Shown here: piece after piece, positions 13,396 through 20,879 of the stretch
How the letters are laid out: every line of letters starts with the position of its first letter
How positions within the stretch are numbered: the first letter of the stretch is position 1
DNA from: Nitrososphaerota archaeon
Lineage (GTDB): Archaea; Thermoproteota; Nitrososphaeria; Nitrososphaerales; Gagatemarchaeaceae
Assembly (NCBI GenBank): GCA_016200045.1
Contig: JACQFN010000012.1
Coordinates: 1-38,231 of the forward strand
Length of the DNA: 38,231 nt
Reading direction: 5' to 3'
The notes under the pieces: generated by a model
Databases searched by the model: none
What the model saw: the letters and a program-made list of their open reading frames with translations, nothing else
What the model was told of the DNA's origin: nothing
Made by a program: the position numbers and the translations under genes

Positions 13396-15336
13396 GTGGG
13401 CTCGACGGGGCAGGAAGGAAGGCGCCTGGGCGCAATAATGTTCACCGACCTGGTAGGGTTCTCTGCGATGGCGGGGAAGGATGAGGATGGGACTTTGAGG
13501 ATGCTGGGGGAGCACAGGAGACTGATGGAGGAGGTGTTCGGCAGTTACAACGGAAGGGTGGTGAAGTCCACCGGAGACGGGTTCTTGGTGGAATTCGCGA
13601 GTGCGGTCGAGGCTGTGAATTGCGCGGTCGAGGCACAGAACAAGATGACCTCTGCGAACCGAGGAAAGAAGATTGCCGAAATGATATCGATCAGGATCGG
13701 AATCCATGTGGGAGACGTGGTCCACTCCGGAGGGGACGTCTTGGGCGACGCTGTCAACGTCGCAGCCCGGGTCCAGCCTCTGGCTGACGTAGGAGGCATC
13801 TGCGTTACGAGGCAGGTCTTTGACCAGGTCGTCAGAAAGGTGCCGAACAGGATGGTAAAGATCGGGACGCGCGACCTTAAGAACATCCAGTATCCGGTAG
13901 AGCTCTATAAGGTCGAGGTGGCTTCGAAAACGACAGAACCAGAATTCGCTAATATGGACCCTCGCCGGCTGGCGATCCTGCCCCTGGCGAACATGAGCGG
14001 GGACCCGGAAGACAAGTACTTCGCTGACGGGATGACGGAGGAGCTGATTTCCACAGTGTCTAGGATCGGCGAACTCAGCGTCATCTCTCGCACCTCTGTA
14101 ATGCGGTACAAAGACACCAACCTGCCGATCGGAGAGATAGGCAGGGAGCTGTCCGCGGGGGCAGTGCTCGAAGGGAGCGTGAGGAAGGCGGGCAACAAGG
14201 TCAGGATTACCACGCAGCTTATCGACGCGCGGAACGACCGCCACCTCTGGGCGCAGAGCTACGACAGAGACCTCACTGACGTCTTCGCCATCCAGGGGGA
14301 CATCGCCGAGAGGGTCGCGGAAGCGCTGAAGGTCCAGCTGCTCGGGGAAGTGAAGGAGAGCTTCGCCAGAAAGACGACCGTCGACCCAGATGCGTACACT
14401 GAATACCTCAAGGGGAGATACTACTGGAATGAAAGGACCCCCGATGCCGTCAGGCTGGCTATCGTCCACTTTGAAAAGGCAATCAAGAACGACCACAACT
14501 TCGCCCCGGCTTACTCGGGGTTGGCAGACTGTTACTCCATTCTGGTCGACCTGCAAGCAATGCCTCGGGCCGACGGCCACCACCGTGCGAAGGAGTATGC
14601 GGAGACGTCACTTTCGTTGGATGGGTCGCTCGCCGAGGCCCACGCGTCGTTGGGCCTGATAATGGAAAATACATGGAATTTCAGAAAAGCGGAGAAAGAA
14701 CTGGAAACGGCTCTGGAGCTCAGACCGAACTACGCATATGCGGCCCACTGGCTCTCATTCGTCAAACGCGGGCTGGGTCTGGAAGTGGAGGCGTTTGAAA
14801 TGGAACGGCGCGCGCATGAACTGGATCCCTATTCGCGTCCCATCGCCATCACCTACGGAGCGGTCCTCACGAACCAAGGAAGGGAGGAGGAGGGTATGGG
14901 AGTGCTCGACAGGGTCGTCGAGTTGAACCCTGACTACGCCACCGGGTTCATGATGCGTGCATGGGGGCGTTCATCCCAAAAGGACTTCGACGGGGCCATC
15001 AGGGACGTCGAAACCGCCCTAAGGCTCATGGGGGGGAAGGGTGCGGACAAGATAAACCTGGCGTGGATCTACGCGGTAGCAGGAAAGCCGTCCGAAGCGA
15101 CGAGGATGCTTGACGAAACAATGCAGGAGGAGGGCCCTCTTCTCTCCCCCGCCGAGGTCGCAAGCGCAATGCTGGCCTTGGGTCGCTCCGATGAGGGTTT
15201 CTCGTGGCTGAACAAGGCCGTCGACGAGCAAGATGGCAAGATTTTCTTTTTCGGAATGCATAACTTGGAAAGGCAATTCCTCTCGGACCCGAGATGGCAT
15301 GAAATAGAGAATAGGCTCGCCGAATTCAGAAAATGA
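13396..15336 (+). CDS. Class III adenylate cyclase with TolB-like and TPR regions
   Basis: A 646-residue soluble protein. Residues 10-175 form a class III nucleotidyl cyclase with both metal aspartates (D18 in FTDLVGFS, D61 in STGDGF), the adenine-selecting pair K57 and D114, and the transition-state residues N121 and R125 (GDAVNVAAR). It should therefore be active and make cAMP from ATP. Residues about 190-320 resemble the TolB-like/FlgO domain (LAILPLANMSGDPEDKYFADG). The rest, about 330-640, is a run of TPR-like helices (AYSGLADCY, AHASLGLIME, AAHWLSF...). This layout is common in soil bacteria, so acquisition from bacteria is plausible. GTG 13396 fits the promoter. A second cyclase gene converges on its 3' end. 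Confidence 0.9.
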   Translation: MGSTGQEGRRLGAIMFTDLVGFSAMAGKDEDGTLRMLGEHRRLMEEVFGSYNGRVVKSTGDGFLVEFASAVEAVNCAVEAQNKMTSANRGKKIAEMISIRIGIHVGDVVHSGGDVLGDAVNVAARVQPLADVGGICVTRQVFDQVVRKVPNRMVKIGTRDLKNIQYPVELYKVEVASKTTEPEFANMDPRRLAILPLANMSGDPEDKYFADGMTEELISTVSRIGELSVISRTSVMRYKDTNLPIGEIGRELSAGAVLEGSVRKAGNKVRITTQLIDARNDRHLWAQSYDRDLTDVFAIQGDIAERVAEALKVQLLGEVKESFARKTTVDPDAYTEYLKGRYYWNERTPDAVRLAIVHFEKAIKNDHNFAPAYSGLADCYSILVDLQAMPRADGHHRAKEYAETSLSLDGSLAEAHASLGLIMENTWNFRKAEKELETALELRPNYAYAAHWLSFVKRGLGLEVEAFEMERRAHELDPYSRPIAITYGAVLTNQGREEEGMGVLDRVVELNPDYATGFMMRAWGRSSQKDFDGAIRDVETALRLMGGKGADKINLAWIYAVAGKPSEATRMLDETMQEEGPLLSPAEVASAMLALGRSDEGFSWLNKAVDEQDGKIFFFGMHNLERQFLSDPRWHEIENRLAEFRK

Positions 15337-15357: not shown

Positions 15358-16428
15358 CTAGATGACGAGAGGCTTGTTGCCCACCGTAAGGTCTTCGAGG
15401 AGCTGGTAGCTCTTCAGAGCGTCCTTCTCCTCGATCACCACTATCGCGTGCGGACTGGTGGTGATGTACTCGATGAGGTTGATCCCGTTCTTCGCAAGGT
15501 GGGTGGTGATGGTCGCAACGACCCCCGGGAGGCTGAGTACCGAATCGGCCAGGGACACGACTATTTCTGCGAGCCCGCTCATCACGTTGAGGATGTGCTT
15601 CTTTGGAACTGCGGCGTTGAGCTTGTCGAGGTTCTTCGAGTCGGTCACCACCTTGACTGTCTCAATCCCGGCAACGATGTGGAGAGTCTCCCCTCTCGCG
15701 TAGTTCACCTCCCCTGAGAACTTCGCCAGCGCCCTCGGGATTTCAGGGTCGTTGTTCAGGGTGACCACGACTATGTTGTTCTTCAGGGTCAACTTCAGGA
15801 CCAGCTTCCCCATGGACTCCCGCTTCCCGCTCACTTCCTTCGCTTCGTACTTCCTTACGAGGCTCACCGCAGGGTGGGCTGGCTTGTCCGGGGACCTTGA
15901 GACCACGTTGGTCCACGGAAGCCTGACCTTGTAGACGTCGATGGGAAACGCGATGTTCTTCAGGTTCTGCGACTCGAGCCTGACCAGTTCGTACGGGATC
16001 TTGTTGCGCACCTGGTCATAGACTTGCTCAGAGATGCACACATCGCCGCCCTCGGCAAGCGGCTCGATCCTCGACGCGATGTTAACCGCATCCCCATAGA
16101 CGTCCCCCTTCTGATGGACGACGTCGCCGACATGAATCCCGATCCGGAGAAGCAGCTTCTTTCCCGCCCTCTTGTTGTACTCGTGGAGGGTCTTCTGAAT
16201 CTCGATTGCGCACTCAGTCGCGTCGAGAGCGCTGTGGAATTCTATCAGGAAGGCGTCCCCCATCGTCTTGATCTCGTGGCCGTCATGCTTGTTTATGGCC
16301 GGCCTGACAAGCTCCCTGTGTTTCTTCAGGAGCCGCAGAGAGAGGGCCTCGTCCCTTTGGCTCAGGGCGGTGTACCCCACGATGTCGGTAAACATTATTG
16401 CGGCAAGTCTTCTACCTGAATGAGGCAT
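15358..16428 (-). CDS. Class III adenylate cyclase fused to an ACT-type module
   Basis: A 356-residue protein. Residues 5-175 are a class III cyclase with D14 and D58 for metals, K54 and D109 for adenine recognition, and N116 and R120 for transition-state binding, so an active adenylate cyclase is expected. After a linker (about 176-205) comes a module of about 150 residues. Its last 65 residues ([21 protein letters not shown] ... GINLIEY ... AIVVIEE) match an ACT domain of the aspartokinase type, preceded by a less clear ACT-like unit. ACT domains usually bind amino acids or other small ligands, so ligand-controlled cAMP synthesis is inferred. No membrane segment. ATG 16428 lies behind a TATA-like CGTTTTATT (16459-16467). 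It is 21 bases from the convergent cyclase. Confidence 0.88.
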
Positions 16429-16458: not shown

Positions 16459-16467
16459 AATAAAACG
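16459..16467 (-). promoter_or_regulatory. TATA-like box for the cyclase-ACT gene
   Basis: CGTTTTATT on the minus strand, centred about 35 bases before ATG 16428, predicts a very short leader. Confidence 0.45.
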
Positions 16468-16567
16468 TTTGCCGAAGGACGGACCCGAAACCGGTCAGAA
16501 CTCAGAAAGTGAACAGACCGATGCCAAGGTCAAATAGGCCATCTAGATGCTCGTAGATGTCAGAGAG

Positions 16568-18268
16568 ATGGAAGGCGCAAAGAAAAAATCGAGCCTAGAG
16601 GAATTGGCAGAAGCGTACTGGGAGGTCCGAATGCGGAACGACCCGCTCTACTCGACGGTCCTCGGTGACCGGCGATTCGACGACAGACTCCCCGACATCA
16701 CCCCGTCAGGAATCTCGCGGGCGATGGATGACTACCGGACGATTCTGGGGGAGTGCGATGAACTCGACGGGGAGGCACTCGCAGCCCCGGAACAGCTGAC
16801 CAGGGCCGCGCTTTCGGTTGAGCTCGGGGGGATGATTGACTTCATCGGCTGTCACCTGGAGTCTTGGACGGTCGACCCTCTGGAAGGTTGGCAAGTCCAG
16901 CTTCAGAACATTGAGTCTTTCCAGCCTGTGAGGAGTCCGGCTGAGGGCCGTTCGCTTGTAATGCGATGGAGCGCTGTGGGTCCCTTGATGGACGCTCACA
17001 TCGAGAACCTGAGGAAGGGGCTCGCGTCTGGCAAGACTGCAGTCGAGGTGGAAGTGAAGAAAGTCTTGGAGGAGACTGATGACCTGCTGGGGAAGCCCGA
17101 AGATGAATGGGCGTTCCTTCGCCCCCTGAGGGAGTCCCACGAAGGCTGGTCGGAGGAAGAGAGGCGGGCATTCCGCGAAGGAGTGAGGTCGGCTACGAAG
17201 GATGCTATTTATCCTGCCTTCGCAAGATACTCCCGATTCCTGAGGACCGAACTGCTTCCAAAGGCCCGGGGGGCCGACAGGCCTGGTCTGATGTACCTTG
17301 AGGGAGGGGTGGAGGCATACGCCCGGTTGATCAACTTCCACACGTCGCTTGACCTCACCCCTGACGAGCTTCACCGGACTGGGATGAGGGAGGTAGCGAA
17401 GATTAATTCGGAGATGGAGAGTCTCGGCGAGAAGGTCTTCGGGGACAGGGACAGAAAGAAGACGATCGACAGGCTTCGGACCGACCGTTCGTTGTATTTC
17501 TCGACCCGAGACGAGGTTGCCGAGAAGGCGGAGCGGGCCCTCAGAAAGGCACAGGAAGCAATCCCAAGGTGGTTCGGGCGCCTCCCGAAGGCCCGATGCG
17601 AGGTCGTCAGAATGGAGGAGCACGAAGAGAAGCATTCAACGATAGCGTACTACCGTCAGCCCGCTGCAGACGGGTCAAGGCCTGGGAGGTACTACATCAA
17701 CACCTCGGCCCCGGAAACCAGGCCGAGATACGAAGCGGAGGTGTTGGCATACCACGAATCCATTCCAGGGCACCACCTGCAGATCGCCATCGCCCAGGAG
17801 CTTGAGGGAATGCCGGCCTTCCGGAAGTACGGCGGCGTCACTGCTTTCGTCGAAGGCTGGGGGCTGTACACCGAGAGACTCTCGGAGGAAATGGGTCTCT
17901 ACACTGACGACCTCGACAGAATCGGGGTGTTGTCGTACGATTCCTGGCGCGCTTGCCGCCTCGTCGTTGACACAGGCATGCACGCGAAGGGTTGGACACG
18001 GGACCAGGCGATCGCCTTCATGCTCGAAAACACGGCGCTGGCGAAGAACAACATCGTGAACGAAGTGGACCGTTACATAGCTTGGCCAGGTCAGGCGCTC
18101 GCCTACAAGACCGGCCAGCTCGAGCTGGTCAGGCTCAGAGGGGAAGCCGAAGCGAGGCCGGGCTCCAGGTTCGACGTGAAGAGGTTCCACGACGACGTAC
18201 TCAAGAACGGCGCCCTCCCTTTGCCGGCGCTTAGGAAGGTCCTAGGTCAACCCGATTCGGCGAGATAG
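16568..18268 (+). CDS. DUF885 family putative metallohydrolase
   Basis: A mainly helical protein of 566 residues from the chosen start, close to the usual DUF885 length. The family is related to zinc metallopeptidases. The motif H396-E-S-I-P-G-H402-H is visible (HExxxGH(H), bases from 17753), followed by a second block (EGWGLYTERLSEEMG) with likely metal-ligand glutamate. No signal peptide is seen, so it probably acts in the cytosol on peptides or esters; the substrate is not known. An ATG at 16547 is also in frame, but the TATA-like CAAATAGG (16531-16538) is too close to it. The ATG at 16568 fits a start of transcription near 16558. Confidence 0.88.
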   Translation: MEGAKKKSSLEELAEAYWEVRMRNDPLYSTVLGDRRFDDRLPDITPSGISRAMDDYRTILGECDELDGEALAAPEQLTRAALSVELGGMIDFIGCHLESWTVDPLEGWQVQLQNIESFQPVRSPAEGRSLVMRWSAVGPLMDAHIENLRKGLASGKTAVEVEVKKVLEETDDLLGKPEDEWAFLRPLRESHEGWSEEERRAFREGVRSATKDAIYPAFARYSRFLRTELLPKARGADRPGLMYLEGGVEAYARLINFHTSLDLTPDELHRTGMREVAKINSEMESLGEKVFGDRDRKKTIDRLRTDRSLYFSTRDEVAEKAERALRKAQEAIPRWFGRLPKARCEVVRMEEHEEKHSTIAYYRQPAADGSRPGRYYINTSAPETRPRYEAEVLAYHESIPGHHLQIAIAQELEGMPAFRKYGGVTAFVEGWGLYTERLSEEMGLYTDDLDRIGVLSYDSWRACRLVVDTGMHAKGWTRDQAIAFMLENTALAKNNIVNEVDRYIAWPGQALAYKTGQLELVRLRGEAEARPGSRFDVKRFHDDVLKNGALPLPALRKVLGQPDSAR

Positions 18269-19319: not shown

Positions 19320-20879
19320 ATGCTTTCAGCCGGCTTCGAAGCAAGAGAATACCAGTCCAAGATCGCGGAGACCGCCGCTTCCACCAACACCCTGGTGGTC
19401 CTTCCCACCGGGCTCGGGAAGACGATGATCGCAGTGATGGTGGCGGCAGTACGCCTGAAAGAGCACCCAGGGTCAAAGGTCGTGGTCCTCGCGCCGACGA
19501 GGCCCCTAGTCCTGCAACATTACGACACCTTCAGGAAGAATCTGGAACTCCCAGAGAGCGCGTTCGCCGTCCTGACCGGGACGGTCGACCCCGGCGAGAG
19601 GGAAGTACTCTGGCTGAAGGCACGGGCAATTTTCGCGACCCCCCAGACCGTCTACAACGACGTCAGACTCGGTAGGGTGACCATGCGCGACGTAGCGCTC
19701 GCCGTATTCGATGAGGCGCACAGGAGTGTGAAGGACTACACGTACACGAAGCTGGCCGAGGCCTACAGGGCCGGAGCCCGCCACCCCCTGATCTTGGGCC
19801 TGACAGCGTCCCCCGGCGGGTCCAAGGAGAGAGTGAACGAGATCAAGAGGAACCTGTTCATCGAAAGGGTCGAGGCCCGGACCGATGACAGCCCTGACGT
19901 GAGGCCCTACGTCGAGCAGACGGCGATCCAGGTGGTCAAGGTCGCGGTCCCCGACGAGTACTACGAGTTGGTGCTGAGGATAAGGGAGCTGTTCAACGAC
20001 AAAGTAAACAAGTTGATGGCAGGGGGGTTCCTGAGGACCAACCGAGTCTCGAAGAAGGCGATACTCGAAGCCCGGGCCTCCATTTCGGCGAGGCTACGCT
20101 CGGCCCAGGCTACAGGGGGCCAGAGAGGGTACATCTTCGGTGCGATAATGAACCAGGCGCAGGCGGTCGTAATACTGCATGCGCTCGAGGTCATCGAGAC
20201 GCAGGGTGCGCCGACCCTGGTGAGGTACCTCGACAGGGTGAAGGAGAGGCCTGACAAGGGGAAGGCAGTTTCGTCCCTCGTCAAGGACCCGAAGTGGCTG
20301 AGGATCGAGGAGGAGGCGGGAAAGGCCAGGGGCGTCGAGCATCCCAAGATGCTCAAGGTGGCGGAGATAGTGTCGGAGCAGTTCAGGAAGAAACCCGACT
20401 CTCGGGTGATCGTGTTCACCCAATACCGGGACACGATCGAGGAGGTCGTGGCGACCCTGCGGAAGGGCGGCCACTCCGCCAGGAGATTTGTGGGACAGTC
20501 AGACCGGGCAGGAGACGAAGGGATGGACCAGGCGGAACAGACAAGGACACTCGAAGAGTTCAGGGCGGGGGGATTCAAGATCCTCGTGAGCAGCAGCATA
20601 GGAGAGGAGGGTCTTCACGTCCCGGACGTCGACCTCGTCGTCTTCTACGAAGCGGTCCCCTCGGAGATACGTTTCATTCAGCGGCGGGGGCGCACCGGGA
20701 GGACCATAGAGGGGCGGGCCGTGATCCTGCTGGCAGAGGGGACCATCGACGAGTCATACTACTACAGCTCTATGCGGAAGGAGACGCGGATGCGGGAACT
20801 GATAGAGGAGTCCCAGAACAAGCCCGTCAGGAAGCGCGCGGGGCGGGCCCCCACGCTACTGGATTTTGTCGGCGACTGA
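19320..20879 (+). CDS. Hef/FANCM-type DEAH helicase lacking a nuclease domain
   Basis: A 519-residue superfamily 2 helicase. Walker A is PTGLGKT (29-35), the DEAH box is 131-134, motif III is LTASPGGS (161-168), and motif VI is IQRRGRTGR near 456-464. A helical insertion between the two RecA domains (about 215-310) is typical of Hef, FANCM and the RIG-I-like group. In euryarchaeal Hef this helicase is followed by an XPF-type nuclease and HhH domains; here the protein stops after the helicase. The C terminus APTLLDFVGD loosely resembles a PCNA-binding PIP box. The likely role is fork or branched-DNA remodelling. ATG 19320; an AT block at 19277-19286 may be the promoter. The next gene is pyruvate kinase, not a nuclease. 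Confidence 0.9.
   Translation: MLSAGFEAREYQSKIAETAASTNTLVVLPTGLGKTMIAVMVAAVRLKEHPGSKVVVLAPTRPLVLQHYDTFRKNLELPESAFAVLTGTVDPGEREVLWLKARAIFATPQTVYNDVRLGRVTMRDVALAVFDEAHRSVKDYTYTKLAEAYRAGARHPLILGLTASPGGSKERVNEIKRNLFIERVEARTDDSPDVRPYVEQTAIQVVKVAVPDEYYELVLRIRELFNDKVNKLMAGGFLRTNRVSKKAILEARASISARLRSAQATGGQRGYIFGAIMNQAQAVVILHALEVIETQGAPTLVRYLDRVKERPDKGKAVSSLVKDPKWLRIEEEAGKARGVEHPKMLKVAEIVSEQFRKKPDSRVIVFTQYRDTIEEVVATLRKGGHSARRFVGQSDRAGDEGMDQAEQTRTLEEFRAGGFKILVSSSIGEEGLHVPDVDLVVFYEAVPSEIRFIQRRGRTGRTIEGRAVILLAEGTIDESYYYSSMRKETRMRELIEESQNKPVRKRAGRAPTLLDFVGD

Follow-up and report, generated by a model that had tools for sequence, protein, structure and literature searches.

Within the window (the whole stretch of 38,231 nucleotides of DNA, from a soil and groundwater archaeon, that was analysed here), a gene on the reverse strand joins an N-terminal class III cyclase domain to a C-terminal module that resembles the regulatory part of aspartokinases (Table 1). 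The gene lies tail to tail with a cyclase–TPR gene (13396–15336, forward strand) and head to head with a DUF885 gene (16547–18268, forward strand), and thus most simply stands on its own. The cyclase–TPR gene encodes a second class III cyclase, and its end is 21 bases from that of the cyclase–ACT gene. A scan for sigma-70 promoters found nothing, which is the expected result in an archaeon. Elsewhere in the window (19320–20879, forward strand) lies a gene for a Hef-like helicase of 519 amino acids, which scored 596 bits against a cut-off of 610 and matched only positions 15–508 of the 781-position Hef nuclease profile, and thus apparently lacks the nuclease part.

Table 1. Features of the cyclase–ACT gene and its upstream region, in window positions
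Feature	Positions	Strand	Basis
Cyclase–ACT fusion gene, 356 amino acids	15358–16428	-	ORF with ATG start; profile matches; orthologues in seven other genomes
TATA-like TTTTATT (candidate)	16459–16465	-	Read by eye; about 34 nt upstream of the ATG
Class III cyclase domain, residues 6–172	15913–16413	-	PF00211; 3mr7 and Ma1120 alignments; Foldseek
D15, first metal-binding aspartate	16384–16386	-	3mr7/Ma1120 alignment; invariant in 8/8 fusions
K54, adenine-specifying lysine	16267–16269	-	Matches the Lys altered in the KDA-to-EGY mutant of Ma1120; invariant in 8/8 fusions
D58, second metal-binding aspartate	16255–16257	-	3mr7/Ma1120 alignment; invariant in 8/8 fusions
D109, adenine-specifying aspartate	16102–16104	-	Matches the Asp altered in the KDA-to-EGY mutant of Ma1120; invariant in 8/8 fusions
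N116 (codon 16081–16083) and R120 (codon 16069–16071), transition-state residues	16069–16083	-	Alignment; invariant in 8/8 fusions
Variable linker, residues 173–187	15868–15912	-	Low pLDDT; dN over residues 173–207
Relic of the last helix of an HTH-like domain, residues 188–198 (11 residues)	15835–15867	-	Stand-alone profile; block score
ACT unit 1, about residues 208–281	15586–15807	-	Predicted strands and helices; Foldseek to aspartokinases; TIGR00656
ACT unit 2, about residues 282–349, canonical PGV...NGIN motif	15382–15585	-	PF13840 match; predicted fold; G302 and N317

The N-terminal half passed the threshold of the class III cyclase family, residues 10–153 matching Pfam Guanylate_cyc (PF00211) with 81.2 bits against a cut-off of 21.9. 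A Foldseek search of the PDB with the model of the fusion protein returned class III cyclases as well as, for the C-terminal half, regulatory subunits of aspartokinases. The alignment to 3mr7 and Ma1120 showed all six canonical residues of adenylyl cyclases, none of which varied among the eight fusion proteins found in this work; the catalytic roles given to them in Table 1 are those generally assigned to these positions in class III cyclases. The fusion protein would therefore be expected to be an active cyclase that produces cAMP.

For the C-terminal half, Pfam ACT_7 (PF13840) matched residues 290–346 with 29.0 bits, a marginal call against the cut-off of 27. The aspartate kinase family TIGR00656 covered residues 203–345, corresponding to both aspartokinase ACT units, with a score far below its whole-protein cut-off. 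The alignments to TIGR00656, NF005159 and TIGR00657 ran from approximately residue 200 to 346, the entire aspartokinase regulatory part, at low scores of 22–24 bits. When a profile of the ACT module was compared with solved sequences, aspartokinase 3l76 came first (E 1.8e-5). An AlphaFold model, with an alignment of the fusions and their homologues as input, predicted a strand (210–225), a helix (229–240), two strands (249–253 and 257–263) and a helix (264–273) for the first unit, and a strand (279–293), a helix (303–313), two strands (318–324 and 327–333) and a helix (334–349) for the second. The beta-alpha-beta-beta-alpha order thus occurs twice within residues 210–349, as in two tandem ACT units, with the last strand of unit 2 not resolved in the model. 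Because the mean pLDDT of the full-length model was a modest 64.7 (approximately 25 in blocks around residues 180–200 and 85–92 in the better ACT blocks), the model does not appear to fix how the domains are arranged. A stand-alone homologue of the ACT module, modelled separately (pLDDT 79.8), gave the same aspartokinase matches. The ligand-loop motif PG...N(I/V)N was present in unit 2 and absent from unit 1.

Taken together, the Guanylate_cyc and ACT_7 matches, the predicted fold and the Foldseek search bear out the proposal of an earlier note on this DNA that a cyclase is coupled directly to an ACT module. That note had described approximately 150 residues ending in one aspartokinase-type ACT domain and had named the predicted structure as the place to look for the fold. 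The ACT fold was indeed there by both AlphaFold and Foldseek; a single ACT domain at the end was not, the module being a tandem pair of about residues 208–349.

Among the fusion orthologues, dN was 0.11–0.16 for the cyclase half, 0.12–0.21 for the ACT half and 0.55–0.88 for the linker region (residues 173–207), with a partly saturated dS of 0.8 to 2. Judged by these rates, purifying selection acts on both halves and not on the linker. The dN of the ACT half is close to that of the cyclase half, indicating that the ACT half is kept for function nearly as strictly.

We analysed the distribution of the ACT module in 46 MAGs of varying completeness from the family of Ca. Gagatemarchaeum in the Nitrososphaerales, which is Group I.1c, the Gagatemarchaeaceae (PMC10640624). 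The genus of the window may be the Subgagatemarchaeum of that paper. The module was found in 14 of these genomes (E below 1e-20), always in one copy, as a cyclase fusion in eight and as a stand-alone protein in six; no genome had both forms. Seven of the fusion-bearing genomes belong to the genus of the window (G000, G002, G005, G007, G012, G015 and G026) and one to a second genus (G125). No other cyclase fusion was detected in overlapping sample sets from the order (400 genomes), the class (400) and the phylum (398), which came to 1,417 look-ups altogether, with sequences read for some of the matches only. The further matches in these samples lay in frames of about 200–300 amino acids, except for a spurious frame of 607 amino acids in G428, which was set aside as a further fusion: by eye, its N-terminal part is a CarA-like gene read antisense, leaving a stand-alone protein. 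A GTDB pattern scan, whose reach is the relatives of this particular ACT module, gave relatives in Nitrososphaerales MAGs of the JOPF series and in a groundwater Thaumarchaeota MAG and, as regards the stand-alone form, in Candidatus Gagatemarchaeum stordalenia and a Bathyarchaeota MAG. Viral contigs and plasmids yielded no relatives.

The genome of the window has ten class III cyclase genes, one of which is the fusion, carrying the only ACT module of the genome. Eight of the other nine were read, and all were cyclase–TPR-like and free of ACT. Across the genus, the number of cyclase matches ranged from 0 to 15 per genome, with 7–15 in its fusion-bearing members. The view of the earlier note that cyclase plus ACT is not a standard architecture agrees with our search of the open-licence literature, which returned unrelated papers only and no described fusion of this kind; domain-architecture databases lay outside its scope. 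As far as searched, we could not find this architecture described.

The stand-alone ACT proteins (223–250 amino acids) suggested how the fusion may have arisen. In these proteins a helical domain precedes the ACT pair. This N-terminal domain has four helices and resembles an HTH in its predicted helices and style of sequence, but none of the Pfam models for HTH domains matched it, and DUF7523 (PF24367) did so weakly. A profile built from stand-alone proteins only matched the window protein with 207 bits over residues 188–349, its first residue falling in the final helix of the HTH-like domain. The start was the same in most of the other fusions shown and later in G007. In seven of the eight fusions, VSLVRKYE-type sequences gave the corresponding block, DAIISAIRRYP, its highest score anywhere in the protein, the score being a ranking rather than a formal test. 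The distance from this relic to the KLT anchor was 27 residues in the fusions, with 29 in G005 and 26 in G007; two apparent values of 23 came from anchor matches placed four residues too early. The fusions thus retain what is left of that helix, equally far from the ACT module, and the cyclase domain seems to have taken the place of the HTH-like head. The fusions formed one group in 88% of the bootstrap trees for the ACT half and in 98% of those for the cyclase half, several inner branches of the trees being poorly supported; both trees are compatible with a single origin and fit a fusion that arose once. The simplest account would be a single event that fused a cyclase domain to the HTH-like domain within its last helix.

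The earlier note had also pointed to an APC permease and a branched-chain aminotransferase nearby. Neither gene was present at any of the seven other fusion loci, which have no conserved neighbour in common and differ in context each time; the two genes are therefore not evidence on the ligand. The stand-alone ACT genes of G052, G046, G143 and G148, from three families, are divergent to genes for the alpha and beta subunits of a 2-oxoacid dehydrogenase E1, named pyruvate dehydrogenase by TIGR03181 and NF006667, whereas those of G011, G024, G027 and G162 are not. The divergent arrangement in three families suggests that the stand-alone proteins are local regulators of the adjoining E1 operon. 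Related archaeal 2-oxoacid dehydrogenase enzymes can use branched-chain 2-oxo acids. The Gagatemarchaeaceae import and degrade branched-chain amino acids (PMC10640624). These facts point weakly towards branched-chain compounds, either amino acids or 2-oxo acids, as ligands of the stand-alone proteins, and would extend to the fusion by homology only. The E1 operon was also considered as a partner of the fusion and rejected, as the E1 gene of the g1 genomes is more distant, has alpha and beta in one frame and lies away from cyclase–ACT. As a separate observation, E1 alpha and E1 beta appear fused in one open frame of about 720–880 amino acids in the window's genome and nine relatives of its genus (L089–L098), and are separate genes in the other genera examined.

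On balance, we favour with reasonable but far from full confidence the explanation that the gene product is a soluble, homodimeric class III adenylyl cyclase with an ACT receptor for small molecules, which arose once by domain swap. The receptor would be the C-terminal aspartokinase-like tandem module, and the cyclase domain of a TPR-type cyclase would have taken the place of the N-terminal HTH-like domain in a single event, so that what was likely a one-component regulator became a sensor that produces cAMP. The ligand, in all likelihood an amino acid (branched-chain or of the aspartate family) or a related 2-oxo acid, would bind between the ACT units of the dimer and shift the packing of the two cyclase domains, so that cAMP goes up or down. 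Class III cyclases act as dimers, and the ACT pairs of aspartokinases dimerise with the effector at the interface; dimer geometry set by a ligand would thus be a natural mechanism. What the computation itself shows is a conserved fusion with its catalytic residues, an ACT fold, a helix relic that marks the domain swap, and trees that allow one origin. Cyclase activity, the formation of dimers, the ligand, the direction in which it acts and the receiver of cAMP are what we infer here. The receiver may perhaps be the one protein of the genome with a cyclic-nucleotide-binding domain over the Pfam cut-off, which has about 140 amino acids and no other recognised domain. This stand-alone domain, a candidate receiver at G000:C19:40647-40892 (L082 around 1501-1824), has no attached HTH. 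At least one copy of such a protein was found in 25 of the 31 genomes of the genus, and none was seen in the fusion-bearing G026 (88% complete). A cAMP circuit would be plausible. The fuller scenario, in which an amino-acid-responsive one-component regulator became an amino-acid-to-cAMP sensor by exchange of its HTH-like head for a cyclase and is read by the single-domain cyclic-nucleotide-binding protein in a cyclase-rich archaeal lineage, is put forward tentatively, as it is somewhat more likely to fail than to hold.

The ACT half might instead be a module for dimerisation or protein docking only, which keeps the two cyclase subunits in a dimer or contacts a partner and senses no small molecule. 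Such a role would suit the general knowledge that class III cyclases need dimers and that ACT pairs dimerise, as well as a unit 1 without the usual PG motif; we nevertheless think it unlikely, since the ACT half is nearly as constrained as the cyclase half and the canonical ligand-loop motif of unit 2 is preserved, with G302 in every one of the eight fusions and N317 in seven. Slightly less probable still is a module whose ligand is not an amino acid but, for example, a 2-oxo acid, a nucleotide or a metal, with cAMP reporting the energy or carbon state. The E1 genes adjoining stand-alone homologues fit this reading, and some ACT-like domains are generally known to bind ligands that are not amino acids, but the nearest solved matches are amino-acid-binding aspartokinases. 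That the fusion is an artefact, either an assembly join or a pseudogene merging two reading frames, has a negligible chance of being true and is refuted by the existence of orthologues: eight genomes carry it, drawn from several sample sets and including one that is a single contig, with frames open throughout and purifying selection on both halves.

The fusion bears on a poorly known subject, namely how archaea make cAMP and what they use it for. A 2021 study reported that class III accounts for very few of the predicted archaeal cyclases and that an unknown class is probably at work in most archaea (PMC8646023). In the present lineage a genome can give as many as 15 cyclase hits, and one of these is coupled to a sensor of the metabolic-feedback type. 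The fusion offers a small, predicted soluble and testable protein with which to ask whether cAMP in archaea is driven by nutrient state. With the relic at its join, it is also an example of how what was likely a one-component regulator became a second-messenger enzyme.

Compared with known systems, the fusion has the same catalytic domain and six canonical residues as 3mr7 of Silicibacter pomeroyi, its best solved match, and Ma1120 of Mycobacterium avium. The cyclase–TPR proteins of the same genome, the nearest of which is 64% identical to the fusion over the cyclase domain, have TPR repeats as their regulatory part in place of the C-terminal tandem ACT module. The regulatory domains of aspartokinases (2dt9, 2zho, 3ab2, 3tvi, 3c1n and 3l76) share the tandem ACT fold and order of the fusion, with fold matches at E of about 1e-8 and a weak profile match. 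However, the fusion has no kinase domain, is only 14–18% identical to aspartokinases in the fold alignments and, unlike the aspartokinase regulatory type, lacks the PG motif in ACT unit 1. In the stand-alone HTH-like ACT proteins, which occur in Nitrososphaerales and Bathyarchaeota, the ACT module is 37–49% identical to that of the fusion with the same spacing to the helix relic; where these proteins have their N-terminal four-helix domain, the fusion has the cyclase and keeps only the last helix as a relic.
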